From an uncultured Aquimarina sp. (GTDB lineage Bacteria; Bacteroidota; Bacteroidia; Flavobacteriales; Flavobacteriaceae): 64,000 nt of DNA. Below, in pieces: positions 46,535 to 55,102 of the stretch. Below the pieces are notes generated by a model. That model was not told the origin of the DNA. It was given only the letters and a program-made list of their open reading frames with translations, and searched no databases. The first letter of the stretch is position 1; every line of letters begins with the position of its first letter. The translations under genes and the position numbers were made by a program. Where the stretch lies: assembly GCA_947498785.1 (NCBI GenBank), contig CANMLS010000001.1, forward strand, positions 248,001 to 312,000, read 5' to 3'.

Positions 46535-47077
46535 TTAATTAGAAACGACAAATGCTGAATATTGACCATGATGGGTAATGGATAAAAGAATATTACTTGG
46601 TCTTTGATTTATGTAAACAATAGGTATTTGGTTATCATTTTTTTTAATAGTAAGCACCGAAGAATCTATATCATACTTTTCTGCAATTTTTTGTAATAAG
46701 AAAGGTTGTATTTTAGGTATGTCGTTAAATATCTGAGAAGTATAGTTTGTAGTAGATTCTTTTGCAATACTATAAATATAATTATCTGCTATTTTGGTAA
46801 AAACCTTATAGATATATTGATCAATGGCTACCTTTCCTCCTAAAATGCAATTAAAATCTATTGGATTATACTTTGGTGGATGTTCAAATCGTCTCTGATG
46901 GGCCTTATAAGCAGCTTCTTTCATACTCCAAAATTTCCAAATCTGTATTTCAGGACGATCTGCTTCAAAAATATAGTGCTGCTCGATCGTAGTAAAAATC
47001 TTTTCTATCCACCCCTTTCTTTTCCAATTGCTTTCTTTTCTGGAAAGCCTAAGATCTACGATATCATTACCAATCAC
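46535..47077 (-). CDS. 4'-phosphopantetheinyl transferase superfamily protein
   Basis: A protein of 180 residues. The two family signatures are present: MIGNDIVDLRLSR near the N-terminus (Mg-binding Asp) and IWKFWSMKEAAYKAHQRRFE (WxxKEA motif). It transfers the phosphopantetheine arm from CoA to a serine of a carrier protein. The obvious client is the ACP encoded immediately upstream, whose stop overlaps this start by 4 nt. It is the last gene of the biosynthetic cluster on the minus strand. A dedicated transferase suggests that the housekeeping AcpS does not serve this ACP well. Confidence 0.9.
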   Translation of the reverse strand: MIGNDIVDLRLSRKESNWKRKGWIEKIFTTIEQHYIFEADRPEIQIWKFWSMKEAAYKAHQRRFEHPPKYNPIDFNCILGGKVAIDQYIYKVFTKIADNYIYSIAKESTTNYTSQIFNDIPKIQPFLLQKIAEKYDIDSSVLTIKKNDNQIPIVYINQRPSNILLSITHHGQYSAFVVSN

Positions 47078-47328
47078 TTTATTGCCAGTTTATTTTCTAT
47101 TACTTCTATTGAAGCTTTAACTGTTAGCATTTTTTCCATTGCTTCATTATCAATTTCAATATCAAATTCGTCTTCTACATCTAATATTACATCTACCAGA
47201 TTTGCAGAATTAATCTCCAGATCTTTTATAAAATCAGTATTTTCTGTAAGATTTTTAAGTGCTTCCTGATTTTGAACATATGGTGCTATAATAGTTTTCA
47301 ATTTGGATAACAATTCTTCTTTATTCAT
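47074..47328 (-). CDS. Acyl carrier protein
   Basis: A protein of 84 residues, acidic and helical as expected. The phosphopantetheine site is the Ser of KDLEINSANLVDVILDVEDE (replacing the usual DSL), followed by the conserved helix III region EFDIEIDNEAMEKMLTVKAS. It carries acyl intermediates for the neighbouring ketosynthase, dehydratase and reductase. It overlaps the PPTase by 4 nt and lies about 100 nt downstream of the ketosynthase gene with a small hairpin between. Confidence 0.92.
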   Translation of the reverse strand: MNKEELLSKLKTIIAPYVQNQEALKNLTENTDFIKDLEINSANLVDVILDVEDEFDIEIDNEAMEKMLTVKASIEVIENKLAIK

Positions 47329-47367
47329 AAATTATTTTAGGTATTAGTCAATATCCCTTTTATTATT

Positions 47368-47385
47368 GAAGTGTTTTTACACTTC
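47368..47385. other. Small hairpin between ketosynthase and ACP genes
   Basis: GAAGTGT and ACACTTC arms with a 4-nt loop. There is no T-run on the minus strand, so it is more likely a processing or attenuation site inside the operon than a full terminator. Confidence 0.35.
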
Positions 47386-47428
47386 AGCGTTTACAATGTA
47401 AGAAAAAGACAAAACTCAACATTCTTTT

Positions 47429-48712
47429 TTAATATTTTTTAAAAATAACGCAAGCATTTACATCTCCAAATCCAAAGCTTGCTTTTGCTATTATATTTGC
47501 AGAAAAATCAAGTGTTTTGGTAGGTATTTTATCACGATCAACCAAAGATTGGATTTCTGGGTGTAAATCTTCACAATTAATATTTCCGAAAATAAAGTTT
47601 TCCTTTAATTGTAATATAGTAGCTACACTTTCGATACTTCCAGATGCCGCAAGACAATGTCCAACAAGGCTTTTTAGTGAATTAATATAAGGAAAATCTG
47701 TTCCTTGTCTACCTAACGCTTTACACCAATTCTGTATTTCTGCACTATCCTTTATCGTTGCAGTAAGATGTCCATTAATGGCGTCTATATCATTTGACTG
47801 TATCCCAGAATTTTCTATAGCTCTTATTATACATTGCTGTACTGCTTCGTTATTGGGGGCAGTCATACTTCCTCCATTACGTTGACCACCACTATTTACA
47901 TGTCCGCCTAATATTTCGGCATAAATAGTAGTTCCTCTCTTTTGAGCATTTTCCAAACTTTCAATAACAAGAGCTCCTGCTCCACTGCCAGGAACAAATC
48001 CACTAGCACTTGCACTCATTGGTCGAGAAGCCTTTGTAGGGCAATCATTATATTTATAGGGAAGAATACGCATAGCATCAAATCCTCCCCAAACATATGG
48101 TCCGCTATCACTAGTACTGCCTGCAAGTATAATTTCTGCAGAACCACTTGCTATACGATCATATGCCATCAAAATAGCTTCTGTACCTGTACTACAGGCA
48201 GAGGAATTTGTCGTTACCACATTACCACATCCTAACATACCTCCCAAAAAAGCACTTATGCCACTAGCCATAGTTTGAGTAACTGTCGTACTACCAAGTC
48301 GCCGTACATTTCCTTCATCAACTTTATAAATAGCTTCTCTAAATTTATCAACACCCAATATTCCTGTTCCAAAAATAACACCTGCATCCCATAATGGAGT
48401 ATCAGAATCACTAATCGATAACCCTGCATCTTTCCATGCATCGATACCTGCAATGACACCATATTCCATCCCAGATGCTTGTAATCCTCTTAATTGAATT
48501 GAATTAAAGTAATTGTTTAAATGGTCCAATTTATATATAGGTAAACCAGCTATTTGACATGAAAATTTTAATTGTTTTAATTTTTCAATTGATCGTATGC
48601 CGCTAGTCCCGTCTTGTATAGCTTTATTAAAATCTGAAACGTTCGTTCCGTTAGGAGATACTACACCTAATCCAGTAATAACAACCCTTCGCTTACTCAT
48701 TTTTATTGCCAA
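47429..48712 (-). CDS. Beta-ketoacyl-ACP synthase (FabF/KAS II-like) of the biosynthetic cluster
   Basis: An ORF of 427 residues; the more usual start is MSKRRVVITGLGVVSPNGTN, four codons in. The condensing triad is intact: Cys in TNSSACSTGTEAILMA, His in NGHLTATIKDSAEI and His in LVGHCLAASGSIESVA, with the C-terminal ASFGFGDVNACVIF loop. It performs decarboxylative Claisen condensation on ACP-bound acyl chains. It lies outside a primary fab operon and inside a cluster with ACP, PPTase, dehydratase, reductase and type III PKS, so it probably builds a specialised acyl chain. Confidence 0.93.
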   Translation of the reverse strand: MAIKMSKRRVVITGLGVVSPNGTNVSDFNKAIQDGTSGIRSIEKLKQLKFSCQIAGLPIYKLDHLNNYFNSIQLRGLQASGMEYGVIAGIDAWKDAGLSISDSDTPLWDAGVIFGTGILGVDKFREAIYKVDEGNVRRLGSTTVTQTMASGISAFLGGMLGCGNVVTTNSSACSTGTEAILMAYDRIASGSAEIILAGSTSDSGPYVWGGFDAMRILPYKYNDCPTKASRPMSASASGFVPGSGAGALVIESLENAQKRGTTIYAEILGGHVNSGGQRNGGSMTAPNNEAVQQCIIRAIENSGIQSNDIDAINGHLTATIKDSAEIQNWCKALGRQGTDFPYINSLKSLVGHCLAASGSIESVATILQLKENFIFGNINCEDLHPEIQSLVDRDKIPTKTLDFSANIIAKASFGFGDVNACVIFKKY

Positions 48713-48828
48713 ATTAACAATAGTTATAATTCATTAATCTAGTTAATTGAATCCTAAAGCTCAATTTTTACTCCTTTTAAATTCAAATTCCAAACTTTAT
48801 TGAAATACCTTAAATTTATCTCGTTATT

Positions 48829-49293
48829 TTACTTTTGAAATGCTATACCAGCCACAATTCCTTTTGCTACCAAAATATGATCTGTATTATACATGGATAC
48901 ATTACATTTTAGTTTATTAAATCTAAAATATACCTTATCTGCGACCACCATTACTTTTTCTTCTGGAAAAACAGGTTTATTAAAATTCATCTCATTACTG
49001 GTCATTGCGACACTCCATTCTCCTTGATCCCATTTACCTTTTAAAAGGTAGATACCAAAACAAGCCAATCCTATTTGAGCCATGCATTCTGTAAGAATAA
49101 CTCCAGGAGTAATAGGATTATCTTTAAAATGACCATTATAAAAATATTCATCACTCAAAAAAGTATAACTTCCTTTGATATGGTCTTCATCAATTTCTAT
49201 AATCTCATCAACAAACAAAAAAGGTTTGCTATATGGTAATTTTTGTATAATATCCTCTTTTTTCAACACCCTACTTTTAAAATGCACAACCAT
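48829..49293 (-). CDS. FabZ/FabA-like 3-hydroxyacyl-ACP dehydratase (hotdog fold)
   Basis: An ORF of 154 residues. Its ATG lies inside the lipoprotein's extended frame; an internal TTG before KKEDIIQKLPYSKPFLFVDE is an alternative start. The hotdog active site is present: His in YNGHFKDNPITPGVI and the acidic residue in LTECMAQIG. It removes water from 3-hydroxyacyl-ACP, the step between ketoreduction and enoyl reduction. It belongs with the ketosynthase and ACP downstream. No separate ketoreductase is seen in the cluster unless the SDR does this job. Confidence 0.88.
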   Translation of the reverse strand: MVVHFKSRVLKKEDIIQKLPYSKPFLFVDEIIEIDEDHIKGSYTFLSDEYFYNGHFKDNPITPGVILTECMAQIGLACFGIYLLKGKWDQGEWSVAMTSNEMNFNKPVFPEEKVMVVADKVYFRFNKLKCNVSMYNTDHILVAKGIVAGIAFQK

Positions 49294-49400
49294 CAGGAAG
49301 TGGTTGCACTGTTTCTAATTCTATTGCAAAAGCCTTATCTAAAGTATTTTCTTCAAATCCTTGATTCACATTTCCTTTAAACACTTTAACTCCATATCCA

Positions 49401-49787
49401 TTAGTATTCTGCCCGAATATAAACAGTTTGTTCTTTGGTAACAGCGACAGGTCCTCCAGACCTTACAAAAGGTTGCTCATCAACATGACTATGCGCTAAA
49501 ACTCTACGGTATACCAAGTTACCATCTTCTGAAATGATTTCCCACCAATCTGCATACTGATCACATCCTGTATCGGGGCTTTTTATTCCCACACTAAAAG
49601 AATAACCGTTTTCGTTTCCAGAAACGACAACACTTACAATTTCTGCTTTAGCATTTACATTAATATCTGGTGTGGTTATATCTTGCATTGTATCTGAAGT
49701 TCTATCATCATTTTTACAAGACATCGTATTTGCAACCAACGGCAAACATAATAGAATAAGTACGTATCTGATTGTTTCTTTAATCAT
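49401..49787 (-). CDS. Lipoprotein of unknown function with an apparent C-terminal frameshift (extends to 49277)
   Basis: An ORF of 128 residues. The signal YVLILLCLPLVANTMSCKND has a Cys near position 24. The mature part has a conserved-looking core: DTGCDQYADWWEIISEDGNL, RRVLAHSHVDEQPFVRSGGP and KEQTVYIRAE. The ORF stops right after RAEY, but the next frame continues without a stop as NTNGYGVKVFKGNVNQGFEE ... ETVQPLPDGCAF to a TAA at 49277, which overlaps the dehydratase start. That reading looks like the natural end of the protein. The family is not assigned. Confidence 0.65.
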   Translation of the reverse strand: MIKETIRYVLILLCLPLVANTMSCKNDDRTSDTMQDITTPDINVNAKAEIVSVVVSGNENGYSFSVGIKSPDTGCDQYADWWEIISEDGNLVYRRVLAHSHVDEQPFVRSGGPVAVTKEQTVYIRAEY

Positions 49788-49896
49788 AATTCATTAATAT
49801 TAATTTTCAATGTATGTTATAACTCTCTTTTTTACTCCTTGTTAAAAACTCAGAAAAACAAAAACTCATATAGTAGATTTCATATACATCATATCT

Positions 49897-50688
49897 TTAC
49901 AAAAGATGTTCCCCTCCATTTACAGGAATAACACATCCATTAATCCAAAAAGCTTCATCCTTACATAACAAATATACAGCATTAGCTACATCATTTGGTT
50001 CTGTAAGTCTGTTATGCGGGTTTCTCAACACGCTGTTCTCGACAATTTTTTCATGCCCTGGTATCATCCTCAAGGATTGTGTATCTACCGCACCTGGTTG
50101 TAAACAATTAGCTTTAATACCATAAGGAGCAAACTCCAAAGCAATACTTCTAGTAATTGCTTCTAGAGCCACCTTAGCCGCAGAAACTGCAGCATAATTT
50201 TTCCATGCTTTTGTGTTTCCTTCACTAGTAAAAGAAATCACCCTTGTATCTTTTCCAAATAATTGTACATTAAAAATAGCAGTTACCCAATCATAAAGGC
50301 TAATAGCCATTGCTTCTATAGTAAGATGAAAATCATCATTTTTCAATATTTGATCTGCATTAACCATGGGTTTCAAATTTCCTTTGGCGACACTATGAAT
50401 TAACGCTTTTATACTACCCTGACCTATATGATTTTTAATCTCTATTACTGTCGTATCTCGTTTTTTAGTATTTAACAAATCGATATTAAAAGAGATCAAA
50501 TCCACTCCTAAATTTCTTATATTATTGAAATTTTCCTCAATCTGACCAATTTCACTCTTACGATTGCGATGAACTATGATAACATTCATACCATGTAGCG
50601 CAAGCTTTTGAGCAGATGCAAGACCAAGACCAGTACTTCCTCCCAATACGAGTACCCATTCATTTTTATTTATAAATTCTTTATTCAT
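49897..50688 (-). CDS. SDR oxidoreductase, enoyl-ACP reductase-like (FabI/FabL type)
   Basis: A protein of 263 residues. Rossmann N-terminus WVLVLGGSTGLGLASAQKLA. The catalytic pair is spaced as Y-x6-K (YAAVSAAKVALEAITRSIAL), as in FabI/FabL enoyl reductases, rather than the YxxxK of classical SDRs. The C-terminus WINGCVIPVNGGEHLL is standard. It probably reduces enoyl-ACP in the acyl-chain branch of the cluster, with ketoreduction as an alternative. The gene lies 42 nt downstream of the type III PKS on the same strand. Confidence 0.88.
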   Translation of the reverse strand: MNKEFINKNEWVLVLGGSTGLGLASAQKLALHGMNVIIVHRNRKSEIGQIEENFNNIRNLGVDLISFNIDLLNTKKRDTTVIEIKNHIGQGSIKALIHSVAKGNLKPMVNADQILKNDDFHLTIEAMAISLYDWVTAIFNVQLFGKDTRVISFTSEGNTKAWKNYAAVSAAKVALEAITRSIALEFAPYGIKANCLQPGAVDTQSLRMIPGHEKIVENSVLRNPHNRLTEPNDVANAVYLLCKDEAFWINGCVIPVNGGEHLL

Positions 50689-50730
50689 AGTAAAGATTTC
50701 AGCATAGACTGAAATAAAAATAATGTATTA

Positions 50731-51783
50731 TTACCATTCTAATAGTATTCTTTGTGCTGAAAATCCCGGACCGAAACTCAACATAAGCCCTGTTTCTCCT
50801 GGTGATGGTTTTTTTTCTAGAAACCGTTCTAAAACATATAAAACAGTAGCACTACTCATATTACCATATTCTAGCAGCACCGCTTTTGTATCATCTATGT
50901 TTTTACCCAGATGTTCAAAAAGTTCTTCTACGGTTTGCACTATTTTTTTACCTCCAGGGTGAAAAACAAGATGATCAACATCTTCAATGGTTTTATTATA
51001 TTTTTTTAAAAAAGGATGAATCACATTCGGAAAGTGCTTTGCGATGGTTTCAGGAACTTTTGGATCCAATATCATTTGCAACCCTCCATTAGTTAATTTA
51101 AAGCCCATCATGGTCGTTGCATCATAAAAATGGTACATTTCATCTCCCAGGATTTTTGGCCCTACTGCGTCCTCTTCTGAGGATAATAAGGTACATGCTG
51201 CTCCGTCACCAAAAATAGCAGCACTTACCATATTCGTCATACTATAATCATCTAACTGAAATGTTGCTGTTGGTGATTCTATAGCAATTACCGCCGCACG
51301 CTTACCGGGATTTGCCTGAAGAAAATTTCTGGCATAAATAATTCCTGAAACTCCAGCTGCGCATCCCATTTCAGTAACAGGTAATCGCACAATATCTTGT
51401 TTGAGATTAAGATCATTAATAATATATGCATCTATCGACGGAATCATAATACCAGTACAACTTACCGTAATAATATAATCCAAAGATTTAGGATCCCAAT
51501 CTACTTTATCTAATGCTTTCTTTAATACGGATACCCCAAGTCTCTTGACTTCTCTAATATAAATATCATTTTTATCTTCAAAAGTGGTAGCATTAAAAAC
51601 TTCCTCAATACTCATAATACCATAGCGTCGATCTACCGCAGAATTCTCAAAGATTTTGATTGCTTTTCTTCTGAAACGATCATTCTGACCAGACAACCAT
51701 TCTGAAACAAAAGGTAAAATTTCTTTGGTTTCACGCATATATGCTGGTAATTGTTTTGCAACAGTAGTAATTCTTACATCCAA
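50731..51783 (-). CDS. Type III polyketide synthase (chalcone/alkylresorcylic synthase-like)
   Basis: A protein of 350 residues. The Cys-His-Asn triad is complete: Cys in LPVTEMGCAAGVSGIIYA, His in HLVFHPGGKKIV and Asn in EYGNMSSATVLYVL, with the C-terminal MLSFGPGFSAQRILL loop. It condenses an acyl-CoA or acyl-ACP starter with malonyl-CoA units and cyclises the chain to a resorcinol, phloroglucinol or pyrone. It lies 19 nt after the methyltransferase, which overlaps the FAD oxidoreductase, so the three form a tailoring operon. The acyl starter is probably supplied by the adjacent ketosynthase/ACP set. Confidence 0.95.
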   Translation of the reverse strand: MDVRITTVAKQLPAYMRETKEILPFVSEWLSGQNDRFRRKAIKIFENSAVDRRYGIMSIEEVFNATTFEDKNDIYIREVKRLGVSVLKKALDKVDWDPKSLDYIITVSCTGIMIPSIDAYIINDLNLKQDIVRLPVTEMGCAAGVSGIIYARNFLQANPGKRAAVIAIESPTATFQLDDYSMTNMVSAAIFGDGAACTLLSSEEDAVGPKILGDEMYHFYDATTMMGFKLTNGGLQMILDPKVPETIAKHFPNVIHPFLKKYNKTIEDVDHLVFHPGGKKIVQTVEELFEHLGKNIDDTKAVLLEYGNMSSATVLYVLERFLEKKPSPGETGLMLSFGPGFSAQRILLEW

Positions 51784-51802
51784 TTTTTCTTACTTTTTAA
51801 TG

Positions 51803-52522
51803 TTAACTTATCTTTTTCATGACAACCCATCGAAACCTGAAAGCCCATTTCCATTGTATTTTAGAGTTTTGTATACCTAGTGATTTTGCATACTGTACTA
51901 ATTCTTTCTTTTTAAAACCTCTTTTTATTGACACCAGCCCATCATTTTTTGCGACATGTCCTTTAATAAAAAAGAAACTGAATATCTTAAACAAATAATA
52001 TGCAATACCACTACGATGAAGATCATTTACCACCACACCTATTGTGGCTAATTCGATCATTTTTTTCATTACAAGTCTTATTTCATTGCTTTTTAAATGA
52101 TGTAATGTTAATGTACATATAACAATGTCATAAGAAAAATTTGAAGCTTGGAGATCTAGTATGTTTTGTTTTTGATATGATATTTCTGGATAAGATGCAC
52201 TAAGTTTTTTAGCATAAGTCAAACATTTTTCACTTACATCTATTCCAAATAATTTTATATCTCTCTCTTTTTTTCTAAATGACTTTGCAATAGATCGTAA
52301 CATTTCGCCATCGCCGCATCCTATATCAAGAATGGTTAGCTGTTGTGAACATTCTGCGTCTTCAATCAATTTATGAATTGCCTGAATTGTAATACTATTA
52401 CCTCCTAATAACCTATTCACTCTCGAAATATCAGATAAAGCTACCTCTAGGGCTTCCCCTTCGACTTTTGGGTCATCCATGAGTTCTAACTCATCACTTC
52501 GATGTTTTAAGTTGATTAGCAT
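51803..52522 (-). CDS. Class I SAM-dependent methyltransferase
   Basis: A protein of 239 residues. SAM-binding motif I is LTILDIGCGDGEMLRSI, followed by an acidic motif II region (KLFGIDVSEKCLTYAKKLS) and ICTLTLHHLKSNEIR at motif III/IV, a UbiE-like layout. A hydrophobic stretch near 165-185 (YYLFKIFSFFFIKG) suggests membrane association or a lipid-like substrate. It overlaps the oxidoreductase by 7 nt and precedes the type III PKS by 19 nt. Expected role: O- or C-methylation of the polyketide ring. Confidence 0.92.
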   Translation of the reverse strand: MLINLKHRSDELELMDDPKVEGEALEVALSDISRVNRLLGGNSITIQAIHKLIEDAECSQQLTILDIGCGDGEMLRSIAKSFRKKERDIKLFGIDVSEKCLTYAKKLSASYPEISYQKQNILDLQASNFSYDIVICTLTLHHLKSNEIRLVMKKMIELATIGVVVNDLHRSGIAYYLFKIFSFFFIKGHVAKNDGLVSIKRGFKKKELVQYAKSLGIQNSKIQWKWAFRFRWVVMKKIS

Positions 52523-53646
52523 ACTAAAGGCTCTCCATGAGTTTGTTTTATGATTTTTGGCACTATTGAAGGAACTGCATTGGCTACGGCATAAGATATT
52601 TGTTGTAAATTACCATTCAATAATATTTTTTGTAAAACTCTACTCATATATAACCTTTTAGAAAAAGTACTATTCCATTTTTGAATATACAACCCTTCTA
52701 TTTTTTTTCTTGATCGTACAATCGTCGTATGATGATTTTCTATTAACAGCTCACATAATAATTGCGCACTTTGGATAGCCATAGCCATACCATTACCACA
52801 TAATGGATGAATGAGTCCTGCGGCATCCCCTGTCATAAAAATATGGTTTTCTACAGGTTTTTTCTTATCAAAATTAATCTGGCTTATAGTAATTGGTTTA
52901 TCAAATAAAAGCTCTGCTGTATTAAAAAAAGTATCCAAATATGGATTTTGCCTCATGATTTTATTCTGAAAAGCATCAATGTTTTTATATTTTTTAAAAC
53001 TGTCATAGGTTACTAGATAGCAAACATTTACTTTTTGATCTTCTACCATAGAAAGTCCGCAATACCCTCCTCTAAAATTATGTAATGAAACGGTATCATC
53101 ATCAAAATCTGCTCTATAATGAGCTTTTACAGCTAACCATGGAGATTTTTTAAGAATAAAATCTCTTTTGAGTGTTTTGTCCAATGTTGTTCGTTTTCCA
53201 TGTGCTCCAATAACATAATTACTAGTATGTACAGCATTATTATTTGTTTTTATAAAAAAAATATCATTTTGATATTGCACATCTATGACTTCGTCATTTA
53301 ACAGCCTTACTCCTAATTCTTTTGCTTTTTCCCATAGGTAATAATCCAGAGTATATCTACTTATCCCAAAACCACCTAGTGGTAATGTACTTTGAATACA
53401 ATTACCTTTTTGAGTTGTTATAATAAAATTTGAAATGTTAACAGGCCGTATTTGTTCAAGATTTATATCTAAAAAATCTAAATACGGGAGTACTTCATTA
53501 GATATATATTCACCACATACTTTATGCTTGGGATACGTATCTTTTTCTATGAGCGTGACTAGTACACCAGCTTTAGCTAAATGAATAGCACTGGTTAATC
53601 CAGCTAGCCCACCACCAATGATTAGTACGTGTAAATTCTCATTCAT
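52516..53646 (-). CDS. FAD-dependent oxidoreductase (geranylgeranyl-reductase / aromatic hydroxylase-like)
   Basis: A protein of 376 residues. FAD-binding GxGxxG region VLIIGGGLAGLTSAIHLAKA, the KVCGEYIS motif typical of geranylgeranyl-reductase-like flavoproteins, and the second FAD motif FMTGDAAGLIHPLCGNGMAM. It could hydroxylate the ring or reduce a double bond. It is the first gene of the methyltransferase/type III PKS operon. In Streptomyces, a type III PKS, a methyltransferase and a flavoprotein together make phenolic lipids (srs operon), a useful though distant parallel. A hairpin terminator of the next gene lies just upstream of its start. Confidence 0.92.
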   Translation of the reverse strand: MNENLHVLIIGGGLAGLTSAIHLAKAGVLVTLIEKDTYPKHKVCGEYISNEVLPYLDFLDINLEQIRPVNISNFIITTQKGNCIQSTLPLGGFGISRYTLDYYLWEKAKELGVRLLNDEVIDVQYQNDIFFIKTNNNAVHTSNYVIGAHGKRTTLDKTLKRDFILKKSPWLAVKAHYRADFDDDTVSLHNFRGGYCGLSMVEDQKVNVCYLVTYDSFKKYKNIDAFQNKIMRQNPYLDTFFNTAELLFDKPITISQINFDKKKPVENHIFMTGDAAGLIHPLCGNGMAMAIQSAQLLCELLIENHHTTIVRSRKKIEGLYIQKWNSTFSKRLYMSRVLQKILLNGNLQQISYAVANAVPSIVPKIIKQTHGEPLVC

Positions 53647-53727: not shown

Positions 53728-54420
53728 TTATTGTTTAACTTCGTTTTGTGCATCTCTCTTCATTTTTTCATTAGCCACAATTCCAAGTTCAACTCTTCTA
53801 TTCTTAGCTCTTCCCTCGGCAGTACCATTATCATATTTTGGAAGCGTTTCTCCATGAGCATAGGTTGTTAAACGACTTTTGCTTATTCCTTGAGACACCA
53901 AATAATTGGTCACAGCATTTGCTCGTTTTTGAGATAATGACATATTATAACTATCATCACCTGTACTATCAGTATGCCCTTCTACAATAATATTAGTATC
54001 AGGATATTCTTTAAAAATACCAGCTAATTTATTAAGGTTTGCTTTAGATTTAGCATTAATAGTTGACTGATTAGTTGCGAAATAAACTCCACTATTCTCA
54101 TCAAAAACTACATCAATACCTTCTCCAACACGTGTGACTTCTGCACCTGGTATTTCTGATTCGATTTTCTGAGCTTGTTTATCCATTTTTTTACCAATAA
54201 CACCACCAGCAACACCACCAACTACACCTCCAATAACGGCACCAAGGGCAGAATTTTTCTTTTTTACATTGTTTCCGATAATACCTCCGAGAACAGCTCC
54301 AGCTGCAGTACCAATTACCGCACCCCTCTGTGTATTGTTTGAGTTTTTAACCGCTTCACAACTTGTCAAAAACGCAACTGTCATTAAGGCAACTCCTATT
54401 TTTTTTAGATTTGTCTTCAT
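53728..54420 (-). CDS. OmpA-family lipoprotein with glycine-zipper segment
   Basis: A protein of 230 residues. Lipoprotein signal IGVALMTVAFLTSCEAVKN, then a glycine-zipper hydrophobic segment at about 35-80 (GTAAGAVLGGIIGNNVKKKN; GGVAGGVIGKKMDKQ). The OmpA peptidoglycan-binding domain occupies about 110-220 with IIVEGHTDSTGDDSYNMSLS, KRANAVTNYLVSQGISKSRL and GRAKNRRVEL. It tethers the envelope to the cell wall. It lies 18 nt downstream of the lipocalin-like gene, probably in the same transcript, and ends at a good terminator. Confidence 0.93.
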   Translation of the reverse strand: MKTNLKKIGVALMTVAFLTSCEAVKNSNNTQRGAVIGTAAGAVLGGIIGNNVKKKNSALGAVIGGVVGGVAGGVIGKKMDKQAQKIESEIPGAEVTRVGEGIDVVFDENSGVYFATNQSTINAKSKANLNKLAGIFKEYPDTNIIVEGHTDSTGDDSYNMSLSQKRANAVTNYLVSQGISKSRLTTYAHGETLPKYDNGTAEGRAKNRRVELGIVANEKMKRDAQNEVKQ

Positions 54421-54438
54421 TTTATGTAAAGATTTGAT

Positions 54439-54918
54439 TTATTGTATTTTATTAAAATTCATAGTAATCACAAATGGCTTTCCTTCTAAACTCACTGTCA
54501 TAGCCCATGTCATTGTAGCGTCATCAAGATGTTGTAAAAGCATCCTGTAACCAGCGTTATTATTGGTGCTTTTTTTCTTTTCGTTTATCGGTTTAAACAA
54601 AAAGCTATAATCTCCATTTCCTTCTGGTTTAGGAATTGTAAATCTAAAATTTCTTGCTCCTGTAGAAACACAACTACTCTGATTTACTTCATATTTCCCC
54701 GTATTATTATTAGGTATAAATTTCCAAACACTTCCTGTAAAGCATTCGGCTGAAGCGTCATTATAAAGGTTAACATCAAATATACCAGAACGATCATAGG
54801 ATATTTTATCTAGTGACCATTCTCCTTTAAGTGTTTTTTTTGCTGCAATAACAGTCTGTTGAGTGGTATTACAAGAAGCTAGTATTACTACTACCAGCAT
54901 TAACATGAGTTTTTTCAT
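54439..54918 (-). CDS. Lipocalin-like lipoprotein
   Basis: The track starts at 54984; ATG 54918 gives the lipoprotein signal MKKLMLMLVVVILASCNTTQ, 159 residues. The mature part starts with LKGEWSLDKISYDRSGIFDV, the GxW hallmark of lipocalin-like domains (PF13648 type), and contains Cys pairs in SAECFTGSVWKF and QSSCVSTGARNF that may form a disulphide. It probably binds a small hydrophobic ligand in the periplasm or outer membrane. It lies upstream of and is co-directional with the OmpA gene. Confidence 0.85.
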   Translation of the reverse strand: MKKLMLMLVVVILASCNTTQQTVIAAKKTLKGEWSLDKISYDRSGIFDVNLYNDASAECFTGSVWKFIPNNNTGKYEVNQSSCVSTGARNFRFTIPKPEGNGDYSFLFKPINEKKKSTNNNAGYRMLLQHLDDATMTWAMTVSLEGKPFVITMNFNKIQ

Positions 54919-55102
54919 TATTGTGGGTTTTATTATATAAAAGTAGCTAATAACGTTAACGTTTCCAATATTATTATATTTCAAAATTAAACTTATAATA
55001 TACGAAATAATAAGTAGTTAAAATTGGATGAAATACATAAAAAAAGGATGAAAATATTTCACTTATCTGTGATCCACATATCAAATCTTAAGTTAAGTAA
55101 TA

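Follow-up and report, generated by a model that had tools for sequence, protein, structure and literature searches.

We analyzed a biosynthetic gene cassette in a 64,000-nucleotide stretch of DNA (the window) from an uncultured Aquimarina sp. (Flavobacteriaceae; contig CANMLS010000001.1). Nine open reading frames (ORFs), all on the minus strand, fill positions 46535-53646 exactly (Table 1), as a first-pass annotation of the sequence had described. Pfam and NCBIfam profiles also bore out the content assigned there: a type III polyketide synthase (T3PKS), a methyltransferase (MT), and an FAD-dependent oxidoreductase (FAD enzyme), together with a ketosynthase (KS), an acyl carrier protein (ACP), a 4'-phosphopantetheinyl transferase (PPTase), a dehydratase (DH), and a short-chain dehydrogenase/reductase (SDR) resembling enoyl reductases (ER). 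The FAD and MT genes overlap by 7 nt, while the GTG start of the PPTase gene lies over the ACP stop (4 nt). Gaps of 19 nt and 42 nt separate MT from T3PKS and T3PKS from ER, and those along ER-LP-DH-KS-ACP (LP, lipoprotein) measure 100-116 nt each. The true start of the KS is likely an ATG 12 nt into the called ORF. A promoter and terminator scan returned 36 promoter-like sites versus 39.5 in shuffles, i.e. no excess.

Table 1. Genes of the cassette, listed from the upstream end, with window coordinates.
Feature	Position	Strand	Remarks
FAD-dependent oxidoreductase/hydroxylase, 376 aa	52516..53646	-	first gene of the putative operon; TIGR02032, PF01494 FAD_binding_3
S-adenosylmethionine (SAM)-dependent MT, 239 aa	51803..52522	-	PF13649/PF08242; best NCBIfam PRK06202
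T3PKS, 350 aa	50731..51783	-	TTG start; PF00195/PF02797
SDR, FabL-like enoyl-ACP reductase (ER), 263 aa	49897..50688	-	best NCBIfam FabL
LP, truncated frame of Aquimarina-specific lipoprotein gene	49401..49787	-	frameshifted; outside core pathway
DH, hotdog-fold 3-hydroxyacyl-ACP dehydratase, FabZ-like, 154 aa	48829..49293	-	PF07977; FabZ models
KS, distinct FabF-like subfamily, 427 aa	47429..48712	-	TIGR03150/PF00109/PF02801
Dedicated ACP, 84 aa	47074..47328	-	PF00550; ACP models; Ser41 in EINSANLV
PPTase, 180 aa	46535..47077	-	GTG start; PF01648, 40 bits

Eight of the nine genes encode enzymes or carriers. The ninth, LP, covers the 5' portion of a lipoprotein gene whose frame breaks near 49400; by tblastn, the C-terminal ~50 residues resume in another frame, to about 49280. 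Intact copies of 158-167 aa occur in about 30 Aquimarina loci (163 aa in A. algiphila, L177), none was found outside Aquimarina among the loci compared, and Pfam gave no family match to the ORF. Being confined to Aquimarina, without a family match, and frameshifted here, LP was rejected as a pathway enzyme.

Active-site residues were followed through alignments of 53-81 orthologues, depending on the protein. PF00195 and PF02797 scores above cut-off, a chalcone/stilbene-synthase fold, and a Cys-His-Asn triad identify the T3PKS as such. This triad (C141/H275/N308), which the first-pass annotation had called complete, is present and invariant in 81/81 orthologues, as is a second thiol, C109. Equally invariant were KS C173/H315/H352 (76/76), DH H55/E69 (79/79), ACP Ser41 (65/65), and PPTase D5/D8/E54/K58 (53/53). 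The FAD enzyme belongs to the geranylgeranyl-reductase/monooxygenase superfamily, and its GxGxxG and GD motifs are invariant or nearly so (80 rows). The best PDB matches of the DH are FabZ dehydratases, and the genome holds four PPTase matches, this one included.

For the SDR, the spacing of the catalytic residues is informative, Y-X6-K marking FabI/FabL enoyl reductases and YxxxK marking FabG. Y165-X6-K172 is invariant in 62/62 orthologues. NCBIfam scores were 150.7 bits for FabL versus 107 for FabG, below the FabL equivalog cut-off of 328, and the best PDB match was FabL (3oic). By its site and closest relatives, the SDR is predicted to be a FabL-type enoyl-ACP reductase. A role as ketoreductase (KR) is less likely because Y-X6-K is universal among the orthologues and FabL is both best model and best structure.

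The T3PKS, which shares 95% identity with its Aquimarina algiphila counterpart, was then traced together with the KS through 143 relatives (panel 1) and 396 Bacteroidota genomes (panel 2), about 540 genomes in all. With orthologues in panel 1 counted at 63% identity or more (one partial), 64 of 143 genomes carried the T3PKS and the identical 64 carried the KS. The same held in panel 2, where both were found in one identical set of 34/396. No genome in either panel held only the T3PKS or only the KS orthologue, although these counts are not independent events, the genomes being related. The window's own genome and one other (G069) were positive in both panels, giving 98 positive entries in total, and in these the two genes always lay close together except at contig ends. 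An FAD orthologue was found in 62/64 panel 1 positives; the remaining two are less complete genomes with the T3PKS at a contig end. T3PKS, KS, and FAD enzyme were all missing from 12/69 Aquimarina. Genomes classified in other families of the class carry the cassette too (L143-L145), whole and never in parts, and their T3PKSs nest inside the flavobacterial T3PKS clade. Independent occurrence of the two halves in relatives had been named beforehand as what would undo a one-pathway model. Searched for at the level of orthologues, it was not found, and the model survived. Strict co-occurrence in two panels likewise led us to reject chance adjacency.

Gene order was compared in 80 loci from Flavobacteriaceae, Weeksellaceae, and one Saprospiraceae metagenome-assembled genome, 75 of which hold both T3PKS and KS. 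The conserved order is FAD-MT-T3PKS-(ER)-DH-KS-ACP-(PPTase), where parentheses mark optional genes. Since order and strand were kept in 75/75 of these loci, the grouping is not due to chance. DH was present in 74/75, ER in 57/75, and PPTase in 52/75. On the T3PKS tree, presence of the ER changes at least 4 times and that of the PPTase at least 5 times, so both can be replaced, presumably by housekeeping enzymes. Flavobacterium loci are without ER; there the chain may stay unsaturated, or housekeeping FabI may reduce it. An Abhydrolase_3-type alpha/beta hydrolase of ~299 aa lies between DH and KS in 23/75 loci (L033-L056), only in Aquimarina, with its presence changing at least 6 times on the T3PKS tree. 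Given this distribution and its absence from the window, it was rejected as a required thioesterase.

The KS is only 32-34% identical to the genome's own two FabF proteins, and its subfamily is set apart from FabF and FabB with support of 100/100. T3PKS-linked KSs form one clade within it (98/99), while the remaining members occur without a T3PKS. Elsewhere in Bacteroidota, a block of identical order, ER-DH-KS-ACP-PPTase, adjoins darB of dialkylresorcinol synthesis in L208 and L209 (NF053539 resorcinol_DarB, 615 and 635 bits; cut-off 550); its KS is a paralogue that shares 50-51% identity with that of the cassette. These darB loci span L208:7155-13335 and L209:7776-14110 and have a 299-300-aa gene in the place of darA as well as a 166-167-aa protein, neither with a Pfam match. 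In dar loci, which supply the flexirubin head group, ring closure falls to DarB, which resembles KASIII (beta-ketoacyl-ACP synthase III), whereas the cassette has a type III PKS instead. L208/L209 showed no MT-FAD pair and the cassette lacks a DarB-like gene, DarB having been found only beside the paralogous block of these two loci.

Further partners were found for related genes. In Aquimarina L168, a related DH-KS pair lies near an enzyme resembling AONS (8-amino-7-oxononanoate synthase) and serine palmitoyltransferase. This locus (L168:902-9338) also holds DUF3089, AIRS-like, and NodU-like proteins and a UbiA-like membrane protein, and looks like an uncharacterized natural-product locus. In L210-L212, from deeper Bacteroidota, KS-DH-ACP is flanked by a GT2 glycosyltransferase and an unassigned protein of ~378 aa, with an ER in L210; this is perhaps another lipid pathway. 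From these neighborhoods, the block has the look of a portable unit that supplies acyl-ACP to exchangeable condensing enzymes downstream. That paralogous blocks occur separately does not divide the pathway but hints at the block's role.

A comparable arrangement was found in Proteobacteria. A plasmid of Caballeronia sp. SBC2 carries T3PKS-MT-FAD-ACP-KS, and plasmids of Novosphingobium pentaromativorans US6-1 and Novosphingobium sp. PP1Y carry ACP-KS-T3PKS-FAD with the MT gene divergent. Paracoccus and Falsirhodobacter have the bare T3PKS-MT-FAD triad. As in the cassette, T3PKS-MT-FAD in the uncharacterized Novosphingobium and Caballeronia loci adjoins an ACP-KS pair; unlike in the cassette, the KS is of another clade, the T3PKS is 26-27% identical, and no DH, ER, or PPTase is annotated alongside. 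The proteobacterial KSs cluster together, apart from the flavobacterial KS (98/93; 26-27% identity). These separate supported clades led us to reject a shared origin of the two ACP-KS pairs, and because of them the KS-ACP pair is judged from the phylogeny to have joined the triad at least twice. This double recruitment is the strongest comparative argument for linking acyl-ACP supply with the T3PKS triad.

It also bears on whether the cassette is merely two unrelated operons side by side, for example a lipid-modifying fatty acid synthase (FAS) branch and an alkylpyrone operon. Elsewhere in Bacteroidota, paralogous blocks with the KS do exist on their own, as do bare T3PKS triads (L158, L160-L162, L180, and L181). 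Against this, the orthologues are never split among the positive entries and neither occurs in any negative genome, the set stays whole in other families, and an analogous pairing arose independently. We regard unrelated operons as extremely improbable.

Among characterized systems, the srsABC operon of Streptomyces griseus encodes a T3PKS, a methyltransferase, and a flavoprotein hydroxylase, and to our knowledge has no dedicated acyl-building set. Although from another phylum, it is like the cassette in this content, a likeness of gene roles and not of sequence. Its products are methylated phenolic lipids and alkylquinones, the latter as cited in PMC10896814. MT-FAD-T3PKS operons make alkylresorcinols/hierridins (PMC10896814). 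In hidABC of Cyanobium (hierridin) and in planctomycetal operons, MT, oxidoreductase, and T3PKS share one operon as they do in the cassette, and the hid-type product is an alkylresorcinol lipid bearing methyl and hydroxyl groups (PMC10896814). Unlike in the cassette, no dedicated KS, ACP, DH, ER, or PPTase is described for them, the comparison being one of gene content rather than sequence. The cassette thus has the T3PKS, MT, and FAD oxidoreductase that define hid/srs-type operons.

It also shares a feature with arsABCD of Azotobacter vinelandii (cyst phenolic lipids), where a dedicated FAS accompanies type III PKSs and, according to PMC6274091 and PMC3098273, the ArsA ACP hands its acyl chains to ArsB/ArsC. 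As in ars, carrier-protein FAS genes cluster with the T3PKS: KS is beside T3PKS in the 98 positive entries, and ACP and DH accompany them in the loci read. However, the ars FAS is a type I, multidomain homologue of polyunsaturated fatty acid (PUFA) synthases, whereas the FAS-like proteins here are all discrete, single-domain type II proteins without an ArsA/ArsD-like member. Moreover, ars has two T3PKSs and the cassette one. The first-pass annotation had recognized no pathway with exactly this set; closely similar characterized ones do exist, namely the operons hid, srs, and ars. T3PKS pathways to phenolic lipids are a known kind, both with a dedicated FAS and without one, and what is new is that the acyl block is of type II and is re-used as a module. 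We know of no characterized example of type II FAS-like acyl-ACP delivery straight to a T3PKS.

Our data suggest, as a reasonably probable reading, that the eight genes make up a single biosynthetic operon in which an acyl-ACP-building block loads the T3PKS to give a methylated, oxidized lipid. The PPTase would activate the dedicated ACP, on which KS, FabZ-like DH, and FabL-like ER would build an acyl chain, with the KR step borrowed from primary metabolism, presumably from FabG. The T3PKS would take this chain directly from the ACP as starter, add malonyl-CoA units, and cyclize the product to what may be an alkylresorcinol or alkylpyrone of presumed ring type and chain length. The MT would then C- or O-methylate the ring and the FAD enzyme hydroxylate or oxidize it, presumably in that order, yielding a methylated lipid of phenolic or quinone type, like those of the hid and srs pathways. 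On our best reading, the product would be a methylated, oxidized alkylresorcinol-, alkylquinone-, or pyrone-type lipid, the choice between resorcinol, quinone, phloroglucinol, and pyrone lying beyond sequence. An acyl-ACP starter has been proposed for HidC (PMC8086630). The custom acyl chain that had been claimed for the PKS gains support from the same block adjoining DarB, another ring-forming enzyme, elsewhere and from the proteobacterial T3PKS-MT-FAD loci, which recruited a KS-ACP pair of their own; its hand-over to the T3PKS is something we infer.

The predicted T3PKS model (predicted local distance difference test, pLDDT, 84.9) gave template modeling (TM) scores of 0.90 to Mycobacterium tuberculosis PKS11 and 0.84 to CylI. 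These alkylpyrone and alkylresorcinol synthases, respectively, are the nearest solved structures by sequence and fold, and both handle long acyl chains. Alternatively, the T3PKS might first make a phloroglucinol- or dihydroxyphenylacetate-type core from malonyl-CoA alone, with the KS/ACP/DH/ER chain later attached to it or extending it. The best NCBIfam model for the T3PKS is DpgA, though at 169 bits it falls far under the 425-bit cut-off, and the KS block is also found with non-T3PKS partners. The T3PKS of Zobellia galactanivorans shares 69% identity with a published Aequorivita enzyme (PMC6139392), so Zobellia probably carries an orthologue of the T3PKS studied here. Weighing the other way, the nearest structures are long-chain-acyl enzymes, no joining acyltransferase or ligase is conserved in the cassette, and the proteobacterial KS-ACP and T3PKS-MT-FAD loci likewise have no evident joining enzyme. 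We consider a malonyl-CoA-derived core unlikely but not negligible.

It is also conceivable that KS, ACP, DH, and ER tune the chain (branching, unsaturation, length) but that it leaves the ACP as acyl-CoA or free acid before the T3PKS acts, so that the ACP never meets the T3PKS. Most type III PKSs do use acyl-CoA, and ArsB, ArsC, and the planctomycete enzymes accept it (PMC6274091, PMC10896814). However, neither a thioesterase nor an acyl-CoA ligase is conserved in the cassette, and the alpha/beta hydrolase is confined to fewer than a third of the T3PKS+KS loci, with none here. Release before the T3PKS is, in our view, quite improbable.

Several observations nevertheless weigh against our preferred reading. 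The probable Zobellia orthologue is reportedly claimed to be a phloroglucinol synthase using malonyl-CoA alone, which also speaks for the alternative of a malonyl-CoA-derived core. Residues of the T3PKS at the CoA-contact positions of chalcone synthase (CHS), compared by eye, are partly basic, and use of CoA substrates is possible on that account. In the tree, the T3PKS falls outside the bare-triad T3PKSs although MT and FAD enzyme are related to theirs; a grouping with them is neither supported nor rejected, and the ring product may differ from those of hid and srs. No KR is found among the nine genes, the lone SDR being FabL-like, and the set is therefore not a complete type II FAS; the dar-linked paralogous blocks of L208/L209 are also without one. 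ER is absent from 18/75 loci and PPTase from 23/75 (two at contig ends), so that the block is not self-sufficient. The description of a FAS-like set thus holds for KS, ACP, PPTase, DH, and ER-like SDR, but not in the sense of completeness.

Counted by antiSMASH, T3PKS clusters rank second in frequency among the cluster types of Flavobacteriaceae (PMC7440613), and a survey of Aquimarina recorded a T3PKS cluster in every genome examined, calling the products likely novel (PMC9323603). No published product assignment or mention of the linked KS-ACP-DH-ER set was found in a search that left subscription literature mostly outside. Because T3PKS clusters are so common in both groups, an abundant marine lipid class may be uncatalogued. 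The anatomy of the cassette yields a precise claim, that a discrete type II acyl-ACP system would feed a type III PKS. DarB re-use and proteobacterial recruitment further suggest a general rule for reading such clusters as an acyl block plus a swappable ring enzyme. In its widest form, which we put forward tentatively and hold at somewhat below even chances, a five-gene acyl-ACP block of Bacteroidota would load DarB (for dialkylresorcinols), a T3PKS, or an AONS-like enzyme, with the flavobacterial type II FAS-like system feeding its T3PKS directly to give most Aquimarina and many other Flavobacteriaceae a new class of methylated quinone/pyrone-type lipids.

An OmpA-like protein and a small lipoprotein lie directly upstream of the cassette (53728-54984, minus strand). 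This pair accompanies the cassette in 60/80 loci from many Flavobacteriaceae, but not in Flavobacterium or Kaistella.

Flavobacterial T3PKSs form their own clade, and a grouping with bare-triad T3PKSs gave p 0.29 in an approximately unbiased (AU) test, so that simple orthology to them is neither supported nor rejected. The cassette MT and FAD enzyme are related to those of the nearer bare triads (FAD 36-43% identical). Other Bacteroidota T3PKSs (~30% identity) are found in bare triads or beside a small protein of ~165-190 aa; a Phyllobacterium gene in the same place is annotated as isoprenylcysteine carboxyl methyltransferase. A few Aquimarina (L163-L166) have a second T3PKS (29-32% identical) followed by an ORF of ~97-113 aa, without MT, FAD, or KS. 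In L158 and L181, a membrane protein that is UbiA-like by eye adjoins the bare triads, which possibly make prenylated phenolic lipids.

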